Source: a virus. From it: a DNA stretch of 28,107 nucleotides. The notes under the pieces are model-generated. The model was not told the origin of the DNA and made no database searches. It was given only the letters and a program-made list of their open reading frames with translations. Both the position numbers and the translations under genes were made by a program. Below are positions 2,235-28,107 of this stretch, one piece after another. Position 1 is the stretch's first letter. Every line of letters starts with the position of its first letter. The DNA is taken from positions 1-28,107 of IMG/VR virus record IMGVR_UViG_3300037516_000476; one strand, written 5' to 3'.

Positions 2235-4667
2235 TTACGAACCACAACCCTCACAGTCAAACGGAGAGTCTATTGGTTTATCTGATGTCATTACGACTTC
2301 AGGTGTTCTTTCACTAATTAATGTATTATTAGTTGGTACTTCCACATTGTTTATAGATGACGTTTGTTCAATTGGTTTCGACACTGACGTATCAACTCCT
2401 AAACCTTTAATTGCGTCTACCGCCGCCCTTGTTCTCAAATAGTACATACCCGTTTTTAACCCTAATTTCCAACCAAATAAATGAGCCGCCAATAATTTAG
2501 GTTTAGTTGCATTATCAACAAATAGGTTTAAAGATTGTGATTGGTCAATAAATATACTTCTATTTGCTGCCATTTGTAAAACACGTTTTTGAGACATTTC
2601 CCAAACTGTTTTATAAACCTCTTTCATTTCAGTAGGAATTTCAGGAATGTTTTGAACTGACCCATTCTCCATAATTAACTTATTCTTAATGGTATCACTC
2701 CACAATCCTATTTTTAATAAATCATTAACTAGATGTTTATTAATCATAATGAACTCTCCACTTAATGTTCTACGAGAATATAAGTTGGTTGTGAATGGTT
2801 CGAACGCTTCATTGTTTCCTAAAATTTGTGCAGTTGATGCTGTTGGCATTGGTGCGACTAATAATGAATTTCTAACACCATAGTTTACCACTTCTTTTCT
2901 TAGAGATTTCCAATCCCAACGACCTGATAAATCTTTATCTTTTTTACCCCACATTTCAAATTGGAAAACACCTTTTTCAATTGGTGATCCTGCTATTGAT
3001 TCATATGGTCCAAACTCTTTAGATAAATCTTTAGAAGATGTCATTGCCGCAAAATATATTGTTTCAAAAATATCTGTTTGTAATTTATCCGCATCTTCAC
3101 TTTCGAACGGTAAACCCAACATACAGAACACATCTGCCAATCCTTGAACACCAAGCCCAACTGGACGATGTTTAAAATTTGAAAGTTTGGTTTCTTGAGT
3201 TGGATAATAGTTTAAATCAATTACATTATTTAAATTCTTAACAACTTGATATGTGTACTCGTATAATAAATCGTGATTAAATTCACCATTAATAATATAC
3301 TTTGGTAAAGCTATTGACGCTAAATTACAAACTGCTTGCTCTGTTGGTGAACTATATTCAATAATTTCAGTACATAAGTTTGAAGATTTGATTGTACCTA
3401 AATTCTTTTGGTTTGATTTGTAGTTAGCTGGGTCCTTATATAACATATATGGTGTTCCCGTTTCAATTTGAGCAGTAAGGATTGCATCCATTAACTTTCT
3501 CGCCTTGATTACTTTTCTTGCCTTGCCTTCTTTTTCGTACTGTTCATACAAACGAGTAAATTTCTTATCTTCTGGTGAATCGTATACATCTGATAATCCA
3601 GGTGCTTCATCAGGTGAAAATAAAGACCAATCACCATCTTGTTCAACTCTCTCCATAAATAAACCTGGAGTCCACATTGCCAAGAATAAATCTCTTGCTC
3701 TCATTTCTTCTTTACCGTGATTCTTTCTTAAATCAATAAATTCAAAAATATCCGAATGCCAAGGTTCAAGATAAACCGCAAAAGATCCCTTACGTTTTCC
3801 TCCTTGGTTAATCCAACGAGCAACTTCGTTATATGTTTTCATCATAGGTAATAAACCATCCGACTGTCCACCTGTACCTTTTATATAAGAACCTTTAGCT
3901 CGAACATCGTGAACGTGAAGTCCAATACCTCCCGCCCATTTAGAAATTTTGGCAACATCTTTAATCGTATCAAATAGACCATCAATATCGTCACCCTTAT
4001 TACCAATTAAGAAACAAGAGGACATTTGTGCTCTACGTGTACCTGCATTAAATAATGTTGGAGTTGCGTGAGTATAAAAATGTTGTGATAAGTCGTCATA
4101 AATTCTTAACGCCATATCTAAATTACCTTTACAAATACCAACGGCAACTCTCATATAAAGATACTGTGGCCTTTCAACTACTCTATCTCCAATCTTTAAA
4201 AGATAAGAACGTTCTAATGTTTTATATCCAAAGTAATCAAATTCAAAATCTCTTTCTTGATGAATTGCACCATCTAAAGACTCTCTATTTTCAATTACAA
4301 ATTTGTAAACACCTTCATCAATTAATGAAGATTCTTTACCTGTTTTTGGTTCAACAAAAGAATATAATTCTTTAATACATTGAGAAAACTTTTTATGTGT
4401 TGTCTTATGTAAATTAGATACCGCCAATCGACCCGATAATTTAGCATAATCAGGATGAGTGGTAACCATTGCCGCAGCTGTTTCCGCCGCTAATACATCT
4501 AACTCAGTTGTTGTTATTCCATCATATATACCTTGTGTTACTTTTAATGTAACAAATGTTGGATCAATGTATTCTAAATTTAAATCACTACAAAAAACAC
4601 TTATTCTACGTGTTATTTTATCATATCTCATTTCCTCTAGGGAACCATCTCTTTTTTTTACTTTCAT
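2235..4667 (-). CDS. nrdA: Ribonucleoside-diphosphate reductase large subunit (class Ia, NrdA)
   Basis: An 810-residue class I ribonucleotide reductase alpha subunit, reducing NDPs to dNDPs with NrdB. Residues 1-90 form an ATP-cone (KKRDGSLEEM...DKITRRI), so dATP-type activity control may be kept. Catalytic residues are all visible: C218 in SSCFL, N430/C432/E434 in SNLCTEI, C447 in AVCNLAS, the radical-transfer pair Y742-Y743 in MYYLRTR, and the C-terminal redox pair C805/C808 in CEGCGS. It starts 12 bases after the nrdB stop, giving a nrdB-nrdA operon downstream of gp41. The text is closer to the eukaryotic/Bacteroidota type than to T4 or E. coli NrdA. No intron or intein interrupts it. Confidence 0.97.
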   Translation of the reverse strand: MKVKKRDGSLEEMRYDKITRRISVFCSDLNLEYIDPTFVTLKVTQGIYDGITTTELDVLAAETAAAMVTTHPDYAKLSGRLAVSNLHKTTHKKFSQCIKELYSFVEPKTGKESSLIDEGVYKFVIENRESLDGAIHQERDFEFDYFGYKTLERSYLLKIGDRVVERPQYLYMRVAVGICKGNLDMALRIYDDLSQHFYTHATPTLFNAGTRRAQMSSCFLIGNKGDDIDGLFDTIKDVAKISKWAGGIGLHVHDVRAKGSYIKGTGGQSDGLLPMMKTYNEVARWINQGGKRKGSFAVYLEPWHSDIFEFIDLRKNHGKEEMRARDLFLAMWTPGLFMERVEQDGDWSLFSPDEAPGLSDVYDSPEDKKFTRLYEQYEKEGKARKVIKARKLMDAILTAQIETGTPYMLYKDPANYKSNQKNLGTIKSSNLCTEIIEYSSPTEQAVCNLASIALPKYIINGEFNHDLLYEYTYQVVKNLNNVIDLNYYPTQETKLSNFKHRPVGLGVQGLADVFCMLGLPFESEDADKLQTDIFETIYFAAMTSSKDLSKEFGPYESIAGSPIEKGVFQFEMWGKKDKDLSGRWDWKSLRKEVVNYGVRNSLLVAPMPTASTAQILGNNEAFEPFTTNLYSRRTLSGEFIMINKHLVNDLLKIGLWSDTIKNKLIMENGSVQNIPEIPTEMKEVYKTVWEMSQKRVLQMAANRSIFIDQSQSLNLFVDNATKPKLLAAHLFGWKLGLKTGMYYLRTRAAVDAIKGLGVDTSVSKPIEQTSSINNVEVPTNNTLISERTPEVVMTSDKPIDSPFDCEGCGS

Positions 4668-4679
4668 CTTATACTATTT

Positions 4680-5657
4680 TTAGAAGTCCATATCCTCGTC
4701 AAACGCGGATTCTAAATCTTCGGTTGCAACATTATTAACTCCCGCCTTTTGATATTCGGCAACTCTTTTCTCAAAGAAATTAGTTTTACCTTGTAATGCG
4801 ATGTTCTGCATAAAATCAAATGGGTTTTCTGAATTGTAAACTTTAGAACAACCCAACGCCATTAATAATCTATCAGTAACAAATTCAAGATATTGAGCCA
4901 TTAAATCGGAATTCATACCAATTAAACGAACTGGTAATGCTTCAAGAATAAATTCTTTCTCAATTTCCAATGCTCCACAGATAATATCTTTTATTTTCTT
5001 TTCACTTAGTTTCTTTTCAATATGGTTATTGTAAATGTGACAAGCAAAATCACAGTGTACACCTTCATCACGAGAAATTAATTCGTTTGAAAATGTTAAA
5101 CCAGGCATTAATCCTCTTTTCTTTAACCAAAAAATTGAACAAAATGAACCAGAGAAGAAGATTCCCTCTACGGCCGCAAATGCCAATAATCTCTCAACAA
5201 AAGATTCTGAATTAATATATTTAAGAGCCCAATCCGCTTTTTTCTTAACGGCAGGAATTGTATCAACCGCATTGAACAAGTAATGTTGTTCATCCTTATC
5301 TTTAACCAACGTATCGATTAATAAAGAATATGTTTCACTATGAATATTTTCCATCATTATTTGGAATCCGTAGAAGAATTTAGCTTCTGTATATTGAACT
5401 TCATTAACAAAGTTCATTGCTAGATTTTCATTTACAATTCCATCAGACGCAGCAAAGAATGCTAATACGTGTTTAATAAAATGTTTTTCGTCATCATTTA
5501 ATTTATTCTCCCAATCTGTAACATCTTGACCTAAATCAATTTCCTCAGCTGTCCAAAAAGACGCTTCAGATTGTTTGTAAAATTTCCATAAATCGTGATG
5601 TTCGATTGGAAAAAGGACAAAACGTCCTGGATTGTCTTGTAAGATTCTTTCCGTCAT
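4680..5657 (-). CDS. nrdB: Ribonucleoside-diphosphate reductase small subunit (class Ia, NrdB)
   Basis: A 325-residue di-iron beta subunit that generates the tyrosyl radical for NrdA. Expected metal ligands are D72 (AASDG), E103 and H106 (ENIH), E164 (AVEG), E198 and H201 (RDEGVH); Y110 in ENIHSETY is the radical tyrosine. The acidic C-terminus FDEDMDF resembles the tail by which beta docks on alpha. I chose ATG 5657, giving [13 protein letters not shown], because an in-frame ATG at 5837 would overlap 173 bases of the helicase gene and add 60 residues unlike NrdB. From 5657 the gap to the helicase stop is 7 bases and the context is AAAATTATG. Strongly similar to animal R2 proteins by eye. Confidence 0.97.
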
Positions 5658-5664
5658 AATTTTA

Positions 5665-7044
5665 TTATTTATTGTTAAGTAATTCTTGTCTCTTCTTAAA
5701 CGCTTCCGCTGCTCTATTTGCGTTGTTTTGAGTTTTTTGTTGTTCCATACCAAGTAAGGTACTTTGTGATTCTGTATCAATAACAAGATATTCATTATTG
5801 AATTTACAGTTACTAAATACAACACCATCTTTACCAATACGAGATTTTAAAAGTGATAGGGTTGCCAAGTTTTGTTCTTTCTGTTCTAATGTCTTACCTA
5901 TTGACAAAATAACGTGAGCAATTTGAGCCTTCTTAATAGAACCACCCATTTGGTCACCCGTTACTACTTCTGATGAAATTGACTCTCTATTACCTTGTGT
6001 TGCGGTCCATATTGCAATATCAAATTCACTTGTCATAGCCTCTAAAGACCTCATAACGGAACCTTCACCTTTCCACTCTTCACCATTTGTACTCTTATCT
6101 GTTGAAATACAATCAACGTAGTCGATAAGTAACAAATCCATTTTAAATCCGTCAGATTTCATCTTTCTAACGATGTTTTTTATTTGTGAAACGGTCACAC
6201 TATCTGAAGGAAATTTCATTAATTTTAATGAACCTGAAGATCTCTCTTCCGCCTCTTTAACCAATCTCTTAACCTCTTCAGCGTTTGCGGGTTGGTCATC
6301 AGGAGTAATTCCTGACCAAATCGTATAATGTTTTCTTTTTATATTACCAGGGTTGTCTTCAAAGAAAATTTGAACAACATTCATCCCTTGGTTATATGCC
6401 GTGTTCGCAAATTTAGTAAGTAAGGTTGTCTTACCTGTACCAGTTGGTGCTAATACAACACCTAATTCTCCACGACCTAAACCACCTTTTAATAGTTGGT
6501 CGATACCCGCAATTCCTGTTGGGATTGGTAGTCTAAAATTATCTTCTAAAGCTTGGTCAATATTATGAAATACGTCAACCGCTTGATCATCATTAATACC
6601 GACTTGTAACGCCCTTTTAATGATTTCCTCAATCTTATTATACGATTCAAATTCACCACTTTCGATAATGTTATGAACGTTCTTAAGTTCCTTTTTTAAG
6701 TTCTGTTGTTTACAAAAATTAAGAGCGGTATCTCTAACAAATGATGTGTCTTTATCATCGTCTTTGATGTTCTGTAAAGTATCTAAATGTACTCTATTTG
6801 TGTCCTTAGTACCCGACTCTGTCATTATTTTCTGTGATAGAGTGTGGTAATCTGGTAGTTTATTATACGTAACGTATAATTCTTTGATATTTTCTACAAT
6901 GTATCTAAATGAATTGTTGTCAAAATATTTACTGTCTAGAAAGTCTATGATTGCTTCTCCAAATTTTTTGTCTTCGATAACCGCTCTAATGAGTGATTGT
7001 TGAAAAGAAAATCCAAGAAAACCGAAATTTTTCTCCTGCTGCAT
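5665..7044 (-). CDS. gp41: Replicative DNA helicase, DnaB-like (T4 gp41-like)
   Basis: A 459-residue hexameric 5'-3' replicative helicase of the DnaB/gp41 family, which unwinds the fork and works with a primase. Residues 1-150 form the N-terminal helical domain; a linker leads to the RecA-like ATPase core from about 165. Walker A is APTGTGKTT (199-207, with K205), Walker B is LLLIDYVD with D308, and [17 protein letters not shown] fits the conserved motif 4 region. The C-terminus is a basic/Gln-rich tail. The start ATG 7044 has AAATTATG context. It lies between the unknown 149-residue gene (19 bases upstream) and nrdB (7 bases downstream). No primase is in this window. Confidence 0.93.
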
Positions 7045-22736: not shown

Positions 22737-24623
22737 TTAAATCTGTAGGGATAGATAATCGTTCGGGTTCATAGGTTCCAAATTATTGTTGATTATAATT
22801 TGTTTATTCTTGTCATATTTTGTACTATTTTGGATTTGAAGATATTCGGCCGCGGTCATAGGTTTATCAGTACTAGTCGTTTTATCTTCTTTTGTTGCCG
22901 TTTTTGGTTTATTATCAACCTTTAACGCTTCTTGTTTTTTGTTAGAGGCACTACCCTTTAATATTCCCGATAAACCTTGGTTTCTAACTGTCTCCACCAT
23001 TTCACCCGCTTTGTTTCCTTTTTCACCTTTAAGCGCCCCACTAAGATACTTATTAGCTTCTTTTATGTAACTATCCGCAGTTTCTCCTGGTCCAACCATA
23101 GCTTTAGCGAATTGAACTTTTAATATTGTTAAAATTTCATTTGTCTTTAAAACTAAGTTTTGGGTTTCGGTAAATTGATCTCTTGCAACTTCCTCAATAC
23201 TCATTCCCTCTAATTTCTTCGCGTTTTCTTTTAATATATTTGCTTGTTCTTGTGTTAACTTATCTAACGCAATAGATTGAGCTCCACCAAATTCTTTTGA
23301 AATAGATGAAACATCAATTGTCATTGTACCATCTTTCATTCTAGCAAGGTTAGTAATAAATTCTGTTTGTTTGTCATCTAATTTTAAACCTCTACTCATT
23401 AATGCCGAAGCCGCTGATGATCTCTCAGCGGCGGCAATTGCCCCTTTCGATAATTCTTGATAACTGATTCCCAATTCGGCAGCCATTGCTTTAGCCCTTC
23501 TTAAATTTACACCAGTAATTTCAAATCTACCTTGTTCACTATTATATGTGGATAAAGACCCCGCAGCACCAATTAAAGCATCTTGTAACCCTTCAACATT
23601 ATTAGTTGCGTCATACATCATCTTAAGTGGGTCACCAAAATCACCAATTGCACCACCTAACACTTGTAAATTAGCGGATAATGATATTGCACCTTCTGGG
23701 TCCATAACCTTATCTGCAATGGTAAACACTTCATTCATACTCATTCTGAATTCGGTTGCCTTTTGTACCATTCTAGTTAAACCTTGTATACCGTTTTGAA
23801 AACCATATTCATTTAACTTACCAATATTTGCTCGAATTTCATTAACAGTTTTTTTACCGTTTAATCCTAACTCTATCGAACTCTTACCCGCTTGATTAAT
23901 TGCTTCTAATGATTTTTCTGCTCCAATACCAACTTGTTCAAATGTTGAGAAAACTTTTGACATTTCCGTTAAGTCCCCAACGAAAGCTCTTGATGTTTTG
24001 GCGGTATCCGCCACTACGGTTGCGTTTAATGTTGTAAATCTTCCTGTTTCTTCAGCAAGACCAACCATTAAATCACTTACTTGTTGAAAACCATAACCCA
24101 TTGAAACAACTCCAGGTAATGACGCAACAATTTCTTGTCTATAATTTTTTGATAAATCTCCCGCAACCCCTAATTGGGAATTGATTTGAGCTCTAAGTTC
24201 TACTTCTTTTTTTAGAATATCTTCAGCACCCACCATTGCTGCTCCCGCTAAATTTTTAATCAAAGCGGCGGTTCCGTCAATAATTCCACCATTTTTACCA
24301 AAGAACTTTTCTAGTGTTTCTACTCCCGCACCTAAGAAAGTTTTTAAATCAGTAATATCAGTACTAGGACCCATAGTTAATTTACTACTGAAGTCTTGTA
24401 TTCCACCTATACCATTAACTAATTTACCCGCATCGCTATTTGAATTTCCTCCACCACCTCCACCATCATTAGTTTTAGCGTTAGGGTCTATACTAAGATA
24501 GAATTGAAATTTATTTCCTAAAGTAGCTCCGTCCGTTTTGCCAAATTTTCTAACGTACACTTTTTCAAACTCGTCGGAACCTTTTCTAGCTGCTTTAGCT
24601 AATTCTATATCTGATGCATTCAT
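22737..24623 (-). CDS. Tail tape measure protein (gp29-like)
   Basis: A 628-residue, largely helical protein that fits the tape measure role: it sets tail length and occupies the tube before ejection. A GGGGGG run (54-59) separates a short N-terminal part from a long helical, Ala/Gly-rich body; GAAMVGAEDILKKEVEL and the region 150-420 (ETGRFTTLNATVVADTAK, ISYQELSKGAIAAAERSS) resemble conserved tape-measure core text. The C-terminus is Lys/Thr-rich and ends NPNDYLSLQI. T4 gp29 is 590 residues, so a tail of about T4 length is expected. It follows the chaperone pair by 13 bases, the usual order for tape measure genes. Confidence 0.83.
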   Translation of the reverse strand: MNASDIELAKAARKGSDEFEKVYVRKFGKTDGATLGNKFQFYLSIDPNAKTNDGGGGGGNSNSDAGKLVNGIGGIQDFSSKLTMGPSTDITDLKTFLGAGVETLEKFFGKNGGIIDGTAALIKNLAGAAMVGAEDILKKEVELRAQINSQLGVAGDLSKNYRQEIVASLPGVVSMGYGFQQVSDLMVGLAEETGRFTTLNATVVADTAKTSRAFVGDLTEMSKVFSTFEQVGIGAEKSLEAINQAGKSSIELGLNGKKTVNEIRANIGKLNEYGFQNGIQGLTRMVQKATEFRMSMNEVFTIADKVMDPEGAISLSANLQVLGGAIGDFGDPLKMMYDATNNVEGLQDALIGAAGSLSTYNSEQGRFEITGVNLRRAKAMAAELGISYQELSKGAIAAAERSSAASALMSRGLKLDDKQTEFITNLARMKDGTMTIDVSSISKEFGGAQSIALDKLTQEQANILKENAKKLEGMSIEEVARDQFTETQNLVLKTNEILTILKVQFAKAMVGPGETADSYIKEANKYLSGALKGEKGNKAGEMVETVRNQGLSGILKGSASNKKQEALKVDNKPKTATKEDKTTSTDKPMTAAEYLQIQNSTKYDKNKQIIINNNLEPMNPNDYLSLQI

Positions 24624-24636
24624 ACATATAAATAGA

Positions 24637-24786
24637 TTAAGTTGTGGTTTCTAATTCAATTAAATAATTGATATAGTACCTCCTTATGTATATTGGCATA
24701 GACATAACATCCCCATAGGAAAACCCTCTTTTAACCAAGAATAAAATCTCGTCTAATTGTCCCTTCTTATACTCCGTAGAAAGGGC
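24637..24786 (-). CDS. Putative frameshift-expressed extension of tail assembly chaperone
   Basis: In the +1 (equivalently -2) frame relative to the gp26-like gene, 49 codons are open from 24786 to a TAA at 24637, reading from ALSTEYKKGQ through VKRGFSYGDVMSM to MPIYIRRYYINYLIE. The text is clearly protein-like. The only usable starts are poor: the frame opens after a TAG near 24820 with only TTG codons, and the ATGs lie near its end, leaving 22 residues. Making it as a C-terminal extension (about 292 residues in total) by ribosomal frameshift fits the G/GT layout known upstream of tape measure genes in other tailed phages. It could instead start at TTG as a separate protein. Confidence 0.68.
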   Translation of the reverse strand, partial: ALSTEYKKGQLDEILFLVKRGFSYGDVMSMPIYIRRYYINYLIELETTT

Positions 24787-25516
24787 GAAAAAACTCCACC
24801 CCAAAGCCAATTTCTACATTGACAAGTTCTCCTGACGGGGCGGTTACTGATTTTACTAAATCTAAATTTGGTTTATGTTCTTTTACGAATTTTCTGAAGT
24901 CTTGAGAATCTTTGATTGGCATCTGTTCAACAAAATTGTGGATGTTCATCAGGTCTCTATTACCAGCGATGGATTTAATCATCATTTCTAACTGTTTGGT
25001 AACAATCGGTGCAACACCAATACCGTTCCAACTCTCTTCAATTTTTTCAATTTCTTTAAGTTGTTTTTTAGTTAAAAATTTAAAAGTAATGTCGACATTT
25101 GATTTTGGGAAATGGAATTTAAATTCTCCCATTTCATCTGGAGCCAATGTGAAGTCTTTAAATGTTATTTCACTTAAATCCACTACTGCAGTGAATTCTT
25201 CATCATTTTTCGGATCTCGTAAATAAAATGTGTATTCTGGACCAAAAGATGTGTTTCTTAAAAATATAAGAATTGCACTTCTATCTTCATCTGATAGTTC
25301 GTCTATTGGTAGGTCTTTATCTAATATTTTTCTTTTCAATAACTCCTCAATAACTGTATTGGTTTTAAGTAAGTTTTGAGCGGATAAAATATTCTCATCG
25401 GTAGCGGTTAAGTAAGCCACTCGAACCGATTTTTTCTTGTTTGTGTAATGAATACCTTTAGAAGGAAGTTCAACTACATCATATGCGATTGTTGGGTCTA
25501 TTGCAAATTGTTCCAT
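24767..25516 (-). CDS. gp26: gp26-like baseplate/tail assembly chaperone
   Basis: A 249-residue protein resembling the T4 gp26 family (T4 baseplate family). Marks are ELPSKGIHYTNKK near the N-terminus, then LTATDENILSAQNLLKTNT and LLKRKILDKDLPIDEL, followed by an alpha/beta body with the lysine-rich helix FLTKKQLKEIEKIEE. Such proteins in many phages precede the tape measure gene and act as its chaperone during tail assembly. The normal product ends FFRPFYGV; a second product about 43 residues longer is proposed through a shift at codons 242-244. It begins 40 bases after the tube terminator, with no clear Shine-Dalgarno. Confidence 0.78.
   Translation of the reverse strand: MEQFAIDPTIAYDVVELPSKGIHYTNKKKSVRVAYLTATDENILSAQNLLKTNTVIEELLKRKILDKDLPIDELSDEDRSAILIFLRNTSFGPEYTFYLRDPKNDEEFTAVVDLSEITFKDFTLAPDEMGEFKFHFPKSNVDITFKFLTKKQLKEIEKIEESWNGIGVAPIVTKQLEMMIKSIAGNRDLMNIHNFVEQMPIKDSQDFRKFVKEHKPNLDLVKSVTAPSGELVNVEIGFGVEFFRPFYGV
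24787..24802 (-). promoter_or_regulatory. Candidate programmed frameshift site (+1 or -2)
   Basis: The coding strand reads GGGGTGGAGTTTTTTC, in zero frame GTG GAG TTT TTT CGC. Slippage of Phe-tRNA on TTT to TTC gives +1; slipping back two on the T6 run gives -2. Both enter the 49-codon downstream frame. A G-rich, Shine-Dalgarno-like GGAG lies 3 bases before the second TTT, like the spacing in the prfB +1 site, and CGC in the A-site is likely rare in this AT-rich genome. Confidence 0.55.
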
Positions 25517-25634: not shown

Positions 25635-26123
25635 TTAGTATACTTGAATACATCTATCCATTCTCAATGTACATTGGATAGTTGCGATTGCATCGTTGTT
25701 GTAATCCAAATCACCAAAGTTTAAGTCGGTGATGAATGTACCTTGAAGAATCCATTTTTCAACCACAACTCCTGTTGGGTCTAACATTTCCAATTCAATG
25801 TCTTTTTTATATCCAGCAGCATATCCCATTCTACCTGTTACTGATTCTGCGTGTAAACGGAACCATTCCATTAAAGCTTGTGATGCTGAAGGACCAATTG
25901 GGTCTTTAAATGTAACTTGAAGAGCTTCCCAAGTAAATCTACCTGCAACGTAAGTTGAAGTGTTTAAGAAAGGAATCTCAACCGAGTTAATTTTAGCACT
26001 AGGTCTTTTAGCTGAAGTAACATACCATTCGTTGATACCCAATGATGAAGGGAATCTAACAATGAATCGGTTAACTCTTTTCGGTTCGTAAGGAACCGGC
26101 ATTTTCATTAGTAAATCTGCCAT
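25635..26123 (-). CDS. gp19: Tail tube protein gp19-like
   Basis: A 162-residue protein, almost the same length as T4 gp19 (163). The pattern is that of the family: MPVPYEPKRVNRFIVRFPSS at the start, then VEIPFLNTSTYVAGRFTWE, LQVTFKDPIGPSASQALMEW, and a C-terminus GTFITDLNFGDLDYNNDAI. Hexamers of gp19 stack to form the inner tube that the sheath drives into the cell. It is bounded by terminators on both sides with its own candidate promoter, suggesting strong separate expression. The order sheath then tube is as in T4. The start has a long A-rich leader (ATACAAAATG). Confidence 0.93.
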   Translation of the reverse strand: MADLLMKMPVPYEPKRVNRFIVRFPSSLGINEWYVTSAKRPSAKINSVEIPFLNTSTYVAGRFTWEALQVTFKDPIGPSASQALMEWFRLHAESVTGRMGYAAGYKKDIELEMLDPTGVVVEKWILQGTFITDLNFGDLDYNNDAIATIQCTLRMDRCIQVY

Positions 26124-26458: not shown

Positions 26459-28107
26459 TTAGATATTCTCAAATGAAGCCCCTGTTGGGGTAATTATGAA
26501 TTCTAAATCAATAAATTCAAGAGAACGAGTAGGTTTAACGTAAATCTTACCTCTCAATGTGTTAGCATCGATATCCTCTGGGTCATTTGAAACCGTTACA
26601 CGGAATTCATATAAACCTCTTTCCTTTTTAATTGACTCAAGAATTGGGTTAACCAATCTTAAGAATTCGTTTCTAACTTGTTCATCGTTTTGCTCGAACA
26701 ATAATCTAACCGCTACGGCAGATATTAATTTTCTTGCTCTTAATAGTAATCTTCTTACGTTGATTCTATCTAAAGCTGATTCTCTAACTTGAAGAGTTTT
26801 GTTACCCCAAATTATAGTACCAGTATCAGAGAATGTCGCAATTGGGTTAATTCTGTTAGCATATAGGTCATCTCTCTCATCTAAAGTTAATTTCTTAGAT
26901 GCTTTGATTGCATTTACTAAACCTCTTGAATAACCAGCGACTGCGAACCAAGGGTAAGACACATTATCAGTTAAAGCAATGTTCTTAACAACCTCACCTG
27001 TTGGTGGGATGTATAATTGAGTTGCATTATCTGTATCTCTTACTTGAATCCAAGGCCAATATGTTGCTGAGTAGTTTGTATCTAAAGAAACTGTATCAAG
27101 ATCACCAATAACACCTTCTGTTGTTGGGTTGTTCGGAGCTCCAATAATATATAGAGAATCCGCTCTTTCGTTTTCAACCATATCAATTGCTTGAGTAGTT
27201 AAAGAACTGTGATCTGAGAAGTTAATACCTGGAGTCGCAAATACGTTAATATCCACAGCTTCAGGGTTTGAGAAGGTATTAATACCATCTAAGTAAGCGT
27301 AATAATCAGAGTTTCCTACTGTATTACTGAATACACCACTATTAGTAGTATAACCACTTACATATGTACTTTTACCAAAAATGTAAGCGTCTCCGTTAGT
27401 TCTAACATCTCTATAGATATCCCAACCATCTCTACCACCATATACCGCGAATGTAAATTTACGATATGCACTAGTTTCTAACAATCCTTTATCTGTACCT
27501 TCTAAATCATATGGAGTACATTTAAATGATGTCCCAGTTATCGCAGCCGCGTTTGAAGATAAGTGGAATCCAAAAGACTCACCACTTGCGTCCGCTCCTT
27601 TGAATTTAAACAAATCTTTATCGAAACCAACTTGAGAAGAAAGACCTAAAGATACTTTTCTTACTTTATCTCCGTTAGACAATACTGGTGTACCATCTGA
27701 TTCGTAATAAATTACGTCTCCAGCTGCAAGATAATCAGTTTTATAAATTGTACTTCCCAAAGTTGACCCTGAGAACGCGTTGTCAGTTAAGAAACCTTTG
27801 AAACCTGCAGGGAAAGCATCTGTTGGGTGATTTGCGTCCATAACTAACATAATGTATTTTGAACGTAATTCAAACTCACCATCAGAAGTACCTATTTTTC
27901 TTGCGACGTAACCTGGTAAATCTGGATTCATTGAACATCTTGTGAATTTTTCAATTACTACCATATTGTCATCAGTATCGTTAAAATCTCTTACGATTAA
28001 ATCAAACTCACCAGAATCAATGTTAATGTTTTGAATCATTATTTTAACTTGGAAGTTAGCGGCTTCACCGTCAGAAATTGTCTGAACTTGGAATAAATCC
28101 GTAACTT
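26459..28107 (-). CDS. gp18: Tail sheath protein gp18-like, 5' end outside window
   Basis: The frame is open to the window edge. The ATG at 28039 is internal: 22 in-frame codons upstream read VTDLFQVQTISDGEAANF, sheath-like text, so 548 residues are visible. T4 gp18 is 659 residues, so roughly 100 N-terminal residues may be missing. The C-terminal third has the contractile sheath signature: NVRRLLLRARKLISAVAV, LFEQNDEQVRNEFLRLVNP, then GLYEFRVTVSNDPEDIDANT and PTRSLEFIDLEF. The middle (IDMVENERADSLYIIGAPNN) fits the sheath core. Sheath subunits wrap the tube and contract on host contact. Tandem terminators follow. Confidence 0.94.
   Translation of the reverse strand, partial: VTDLFQVQTISDGEAANFQVKIMIQNINIDSGEFDLIVRDFNDTDDNMVVIEKFTRCSMNPDLPGYVARKIGTSDGEFELRSKYIMLVMDANHPTDAFPAGFKGFLTDNAFSGSTLGSTIYKTDYLAAGDVIYYESDGTPVLSNGDKVRKVSLGLSSQVGFDKDLFKFKGADASGESFGFHLSSNAAAITGTSFKCTPYDLEGTDKGLLETSAYRKFTFAVYGGRDGWDIYRDVRTNGDAYIFGKSTYVSGYTTNSGVFSNTVGNSDYYAYLDGINTFSNPEAVDINVFATPGINFSDHSSLTTQAIDMVENERADSLYIIGAPNNPTTEGVIGDLDTVSLDTNYSATYWPWIQVRDTDNATQLYIPPTGEVVKNIALTDNVSYPWFAVAGYSRGLVNAIKASKKLTLDERDDLYANRINPIATFSDTGTIIWGNKTLQVRESALDRINVRRLLLRARKLISAVAVRLLFEQNDEQVRNEFLRLVNPILESIKKERGLYEFRVTVSNDPEDIDANTLRGKIYVKPTRSLEFIDLEFIITPTGASFENI

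Follow-up and report, generated by a model that had tools for sequence, protein, structure and literature searches.

Work by Xu, Hendrix and Duda (2004), as described in a 2016 review (PMC5009743), concerns the lambda gpG/gpGT frameshift of long-tailed phages. According to that review, the G-T frameshift is conserved in long-tailed phages 'except T4', and in the lambda model many copies of gpG and few of gpGT assemble on the tape measure protein, where the T portion recruits the tube protein. In T4, gp26 and gp51 are hub assembly chaperones, and gp51 is required yet absent from the particle (PMC3004832, which cites the 1968 catalytic-versus-stoichiometric work). Vladimirov, Gautam and Davidson (Virology 2022) identified short and long tail assembly chaperones in T4-like phages, as cited in the PRFect paper (PMC10885494) and the Adele paper (PMC12846349), where the same work is also cited for poly-T -1 signals in T4-like phages. 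Because both papers credit Vladimirov et al. with the idea that gp26 and gp51 are a short and a long chaperone, that idea is already published. Elsewhere, a +1 shift at TTT-CGC has been predicted in HF1-group haloviruses (PMC7230728), and influenza A PA-X, as cited in the same paper, arises from a +1 shift at UCC UUU CGU.

The window, by which we mean the whole 28-kb (28,107-nucleotide) stretch analysed, is a record from a virus of bacteria in which all main genes lie on the minus strand. Its content is T4-like, with sheath, tube, gp25, baseplate J, gp32, RecA-like, DnaB-like and ribonucleotide reductase genes. The order sheath, tube, chaperone, T and tape measure places the chaperone gene in the lambda-type position (Table 1). 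The chaperone and tube proteins are assigned by profile, and the PF12322 match of the 0-frame chaperone (2.1e-8) exceeds the curated cut-off. The tape measure protein is presumed from position and from Flavobacterium phage immuto, in which the gene after the tail is annotated as tape measure; the candidate had no hit of its own in the profile libraries searched. It starts at 24623, 14 nt past the end of the +1 frame (24637).

Table 1. Features at and around the predicted shift site, in window coordinates
Feature	Position	Strand	Evidence
Tail sheath protein	26459..28039	-	PF04984 4e-13; phrog_23 1.9e-55
Tail tube protein (gp19-like)	25635..26123	-	PF06841 3.1e-7; phrog_4542 1.1e-27
Short tail assembly chaperone, 0-frame gene (gp26-like, 'G' or TAC-N), 249 aa	24767..25516	-	PF12322 T4_baseplate 2.1e-8; phrog_150 3.3e-10, profile 17-233
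GGG GTG GAG just before site, possible stimulator	24794..24802	-	GGG invariant, GAG 86% in clade
Shift site TTT TTT CGC (predicted)	24785..24793	-	TTTTTTCG in 79/79 relatives; CGC 74, CGT 5
+1-frame tail ('T' or TAC-C), 49 codons + TAA	24637..24786	-	open frame in 79/79 relatives; pN/pS; phrog_150 and phrog_634 matches pointing to homology with T4 gp51 C-terminus
Tape measure protein candidate, 628 aa	22737..24623	-	position; same gene order in Flavobacterium phage immuto

Several other features of the window deserve mention. No Shine-Dalgarno-like sequence is apparent upstream of the start codons of its main genes, and CGC and CGG codons are nearly absent. The gene for the ribonucleotide reductase large subunit (2235-4667) adjoins the gp25-like baseplate gene within the structural and replication cluster, and a 385-aa frame with a putative TTG start (4680-5837) overlaps the helicase gene (5665-7044) by 173 nt. 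A search of genome contigs found no relative.

The 0-frame chaperone gene ends with ...GGG GTG GAG TTT TTT CGC CCT TTC TAC GGA GTA TAA. The motif TTTTTTCGC (24793-24785) lies 27 nt before the end of this TAA (24767), and the +1 frame reads FFALSTEYKKGQLDEILFLVKRGFSYGDVMSMPIYIRRYYINYLIELETTT from the T run to its stop at 24637. The coordinates, the frames and the entry point at TTT TTT CGC given in the sequence-only reading are right. The preceding +1-frame stop (24816-24814) is 7 codons upstream of the site, and two TTGs but no ATG lie between them. Across the window's 9,032 codons, in-frame TTT TTT C occurs once, at this site; in-frame TTT CGN likewise occurs once, and CGC makes up 2 of 328 Arg codons. 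The overlapping frame and the sequence at the proposed slip site are confirmed as real rather than products of chance.

We propose, with a probability of about 90%, that this one gene gives rise to two tail assembly chaperones by a +1 slip at the second TTT. Most ribosomes would end at the TAA and release the short, gp26-like form of 249 aa. A minority would pause with tRNA-Phe on the second TTT and the rare CGC waiting in the A site; the tRNA would move from UUU to UUC, one base forward, and the ribosome would go on translating in the +1 frame. The predicted long form of 292 aa consists of residues 1-243 followed by ALSTEYKK...LETTT, and the added residues would form a small domain of helices that matches the T4 gp51 C-terminus. 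If the lambda pair gpG and gpGT is a guide, the tape measure protein would be bound by many short chaperones and few long ones, with the extra domain recruiting the tail tube subunit. Like the lambda pair, the locus sits between the tube and tape measure genes, with a shift near the 3' end and a C-terminal domain that has no start of its own; lambda shifts by -1, whereas the window phage is predicted to shift by +1, and the likeness is one of position and layout. A lambda-like role for the products of the window gene would follow from this analogy.

Close relatives lend strong support to the predicted fusion, in which the gp26-like protein gains a 49-residue tail encoded just ahead of the tape measure gene. 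An IMG/VR scan returned 80 loci encoding relatives, 79 of them readable through the site, with chaperone proteins about 70-100% identical to that of the window. TTTTTTCG is found at the same codon in all 79, and in all of them the +1 frame is open and encodes the same protein motif (one copy ends at its contig end), so the fusion claimed from the sequence alone, with its T6 run and frame, withstood alignment. Over 36 non-overlapping codons, pN/pS is 0.16 in the +1 frame, compared with 1.34 and 1.76 in the other two frames; judged by this substitution pattern, the +1 frame is protein-coding and under purifying selection. The third positions round the site are frozen, with major-codon shares of 100% for GGG, 86% for GAG, 100% for TTT TTT, 94% for CGC and 100% each for CCT and TTC, against a mean of 0.75 elsewhere. 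Past the site, double coding accounts for part of this. The comparison gives a conserved site, conserved +1 coding, missing starts and homology of the tail to gp51; we infer the occurrence of the shift, its +1 sign, the role of CGC, the product ratio and the chaperone function.

CGC, the proposed A-site codon, is otherwise avoided in the parts of these phage genomes that were seen. At the site, the second TTT is followed by CGC in 74 of the 79 relatives and by CGT in the remaining 5, and so by a rare CGN codon in every case. Elsewhere in the long open frames of the relative loci, CGC accounts for 6 of 7,029 Arg codons (0.09%), and TTT_CGN, present 79 times at the site, occurs 11 times among 5,846 TTT codons. 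CGC is also dual-coding, since the GC of GCC, an Ala codon in the +1 frame, comes from it. Because of this double duty and the relatedness of the loci, its conservation is not clean proof of pausing.

We looked for stimulators on both sides of the site. The sequence-only reading had pointed to a GGAG before the second TTT and to Shine-Dalgarno stimulation of a +1 shift. The GGAG is indeed present in the window, but the clade conserves only GTN GAR, in which N is free (GTG 42%), so that the motif varies freely at the Val codon and stimulation of the prfB type is unsupported. We rejected that model, as the clade conserves nothing like a Shine-Dalgarno sequence 3 nt ahead of the shift codon. The invariant GGG codon before the GGAG may matter for the shift. 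GGGTNGAGTTTTTTCGCCC (24785-24802) can form a weak small hairpin around the site by pairing with CGCCC; its pairs are conserved and show no covariation. Downstream, searches for a stem-loop or pseudoknot found no conserved structure (z-scores -0.9 to +1.3), and for this reason the efficiency of the shift could be very low.

A -2 shift of the kind known from phage Mu, acting on the T6 run, would give the same fusion with one extra Phe. Both slips were proposed from the sequence alone, and in the window they do enter the same frame. Moreover, every member of the window clade keeps T6, the first TTT included, although that TTT is dispensable for a +1 slip at the second codon. More distant homologues speak against -2. 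Further scans, with chaperones from Flavobacterium phage immuto, Microcystis phage Mel-JY01 and Synechococcus phage S-CAM8 as queries and sorting by tail profile, added 160 loci whose tail is in the +1 frame (related to immuto and Mel-JY01) and 79 in which it is in the -1 frame; the survey loci are not independent (75, 49 and 56 distinct sequences in the three groups). Among the 160, the site is TTTTTTTGG in 103, TTTCTTTGG in 35 and TTTCTATGG in 4, with a few each of CTTTTTTGG, TTTTTTTAC, TTTCTTTAC and TTTCTATTC. The T6 run is missing from LR756508 (AAC TTT CTA TTC), from GXN1 (GAA TTC TTT CGT) and from relatives of immuto (ACC TTT CTA TGG); Rhodothermus phage RM378, also with its tail in the +1 frame, has TCC TTT TTT TGG. 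The distant +1 homologues (immuto, Mel-JY01, RM378, LR756508 and GXN1) have TTT-C, TTT-T or CTT-T sites, and the +1-frame homologues have in common a Phe (or Leu) codon with C or T as the next base. At sites with a broken run, tRNA-Phe slipping +1 from UUU to UUC pairs fully, whereas its re-pairing after a -2 slip is mismatched. A Mu-type -2 site conserved across the homologues was not found: the sites of LR756508, GXN1 and TTTCTATGG disallow -2. Because homologous sites without T6 allow +1 and not -2, we regard +1 as the most likely direction and a -2 shift as improbable. We note that the record of phage vB_SagM-GXN1 (PQ819873) carries just 40 annotated features in 176 kb, which may reflect an unusual code or incomplete annotation.

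The -1 homologues form a uniform set of their own. In all 79 loci a run of six T precedes C (75), G (2) or A (2), usually with the 0-frame stop one codon after the site, and the cyanophage homologues are predicted to shift at T_TTT_TTC. A scan with Pseudomonas phage Cygsa01 added 16 more -1 loci, with AAT TTT TTC GTA TAA, and XacN1 and LR756511 likewise have their tail in the -1 frame. Synechococcus phage S-SCSM1 has about 11 more bases behind the 0-frame stop than relatives have, which puts the tail in the +1 instead of the -1 frame; in its record the tail is a separate 55-aa gene with an ATG.

Alternatively, the tail could be a separate protein made by re-initiation or from an unusual internal start after the chaperone stop. 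Such an arrangement has a counterpart in Pseudomonas phage Cygsa01, where T is a gene of its own with a TAATG overlap, and in the window the two in-frame TTGs upstream of the site could serve as starts. That the tail lacks a good start had been noticed in the window, and the relatives bear this out. Among 42 distinct clade sequences, 14 have no ATG, GTG or TTG upstream of the site in the T frame, an upstream ATG is missing from 38, and in 25 a stop lies in the 30 nt that precede the site. Coding conservation of the tail starts at the shift site itself, and ATGs inside the tail come only about 30 codons in, at a conserved MP motif. With starts missing, stops upstream and ATGs so late, independent initiation cannot be the general mechanism. 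In addition, no homologue with a separate start and ribosome site for the tail was found in the clade of 79 relatives. We consider this explanation very unlikely.

Slippage of RNA polymerase on the T6 run, which would put a share of the messages in the +1 frame, seems less likely still. A homopolymer is present, but at six T it is short for slippage by a polymerase, and the run is absent from homologues with TTTCTTTGG or TTTCTATGG. Nothing was found in favour of sequencing error or gene decay, and conservation refutes both, the same site and frame recurring under purifying selection in 79 metagenome contigs.

If the +1 slip at the second TTT joins the two frames, the nature of the added domain becomes central. 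T4 gp26 and gp51 both belong to PF12322, and their matches to phrog_150 reach position 235 for gp26 and 280 for gp51. The last 55 residues of gp51 match phrog_634 (8e-11) and phrog_150 positions 228-281; phrog_634, named 'baseplate hub assembly catalyst', is also the family of the cyanophage -1 tail (9e-30). For the window, the 0-frame product matches phrog_150 over 17-233 with 40.9 bits and the fused product over 17-277 with 49.3 bits; five shuffled tails gave 40.0-45.5 bits, all below the fused product, and their matches ended by position 250. Comparison of tail profiles linked gp51 to the cyanophage tail (probability 97%, E 2e-11) and the window type to the cyanophage tail (76%, E 2e-5), while the direct hhalign comparison of window type and gp51 was weak (30%, E 5e-4); full-length profiles of these two aligned in the tail only, and weakly (E about 0.03). 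A tblastn search with the tail alone found no phage record. Taken together, the profiles argue for homology of the window's +1 tail to the C-terminus of T4 gp51, partly by way of the cyanophage bridge, so that the two products would be a short (gp26-like) and a long (gp51-like) chaperone.

Structure prediction was applied to the short form and the tail separately. AlphaFold2 gave the short form a pLDDT of 87, with the residues past the shift site disordered, and the tail three helices, also at pLDDT 87, with differences among the five models. The BFVD fold matches of the short form are T4-like baseplate hub assembly proteins. Searches of the PDB by fold gave nothing significant for the short form or the tail: the HK97 chaperone 2ob9 ranked 39th (E 3.7, TM 0.49 over the target), which is not significant, and gp51 has no relative among solved structures.

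The arrangement resembles that attributed to T4-like phages by Vladimirov et al. (2022), as cited in the two later papers, in that a short chaperone is accompanied by a long one with an extra C-terminal domain. The window gene, gp26 and gp51 all belong to PF12322 and phrog_150, and the gp51 C-terminus matches the cyanophage -1 tail. T4 uses two genes, 26 and 51, whereas the window phage has one gene and a predicted +1 shift; the cyanophage homologues differ from it in shifting -1. The sequence-only reading had taken genes 26 and 51 to be adjacent in T4. They lie on opposite strands and are paralogues, not consecutive parts of one product. In pseudoT-even (RB43-like) phages the two paralogues are in tandem on one strand, as expected from duplication, and in T4 they are divergent. 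The view that T4-like phages do without the device is outdated, given the short and long chaperones credited to the 2022 paper, and our analysis independently confirms the published idea of a gp26/gp51 short and long pair.

The closest cultured relative, Flavobacterium phage immuto (MW353176), has the same gene order and a +1 tail at TTT CTT TGG. Its chaperone is about 31% identical to the window protein, and of its tail the record annotates only a 36-aa hypothetical protein, which leaves out most of the conserved +1 frame. The haloviruses of the HF1 group and HSTV-2 share with the window a predicted +1 shift, a TTT CGC site and a place before the tape measure gene; in HSTV-2 (GenBank KC117376) the TTT CGC +1 site is annotated as a joined gene. 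The HSTV-2 chaperone differs in belonging to phrog_12163, with no phrog_150 match, and because it is of another family the halovirus TTT CGC site looks convergent. PA-X resembles the predicted window shift in having tRNA-Phe on UUU before CGN, a +1 shift and no evident structure, but it comes from a eukaryotic RNA virus, with an unrelated gene and ribosome.

More tentatively, and with slightly less than even confidence, we suggest that these phages reach one homologous T4-like chaperone pair by four routes, that the sign of the shift has switched along the way, and that the level of the tRNA reading CGC could set the ratio in the window clade. The first route would be a +1 shift at TTT-C, TTT-T or CTT-T (window clade, immuto, Mel-JY01 and RM378). 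Cyanophages and others would take the second, a -1 shift at T_TTT_TTC; the third would be an overlapping gene for the tail by itself, and the fourth a fused gene arisen by duplication, as T4 gp51. In this scheme the sign would have switched with no change in the protein position of the site, and since CGC is nearly reserved for the site in the genome parts seen, the level of a rare arginine tRNA could set the chaperone ratio. What may be new here is that the family of T4 chaperones contains a deeply conserved +1 branch, that the sign switches from one homologue to another and that CGC is nearly reserved for the site.

What do these results mean for the chaperone family? A conserved +1 variant would extend a device that mostly works by -1 shifts, and would do so in a family that includes T4, the long-listed exception. 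The forward direction and the near-exclusive use of an avoided codon are unusual for this gene family. Our comparison also corrects annotation, as many phage records overlook the tail or give it an entry of its own under the name 'baseplate hub assembly catalyst'. Finally, the rare-codon site would offer a simple natural test of whether a starved A site drives +1 slippage in phages that make little use of Shine-Dalgarno sequences.
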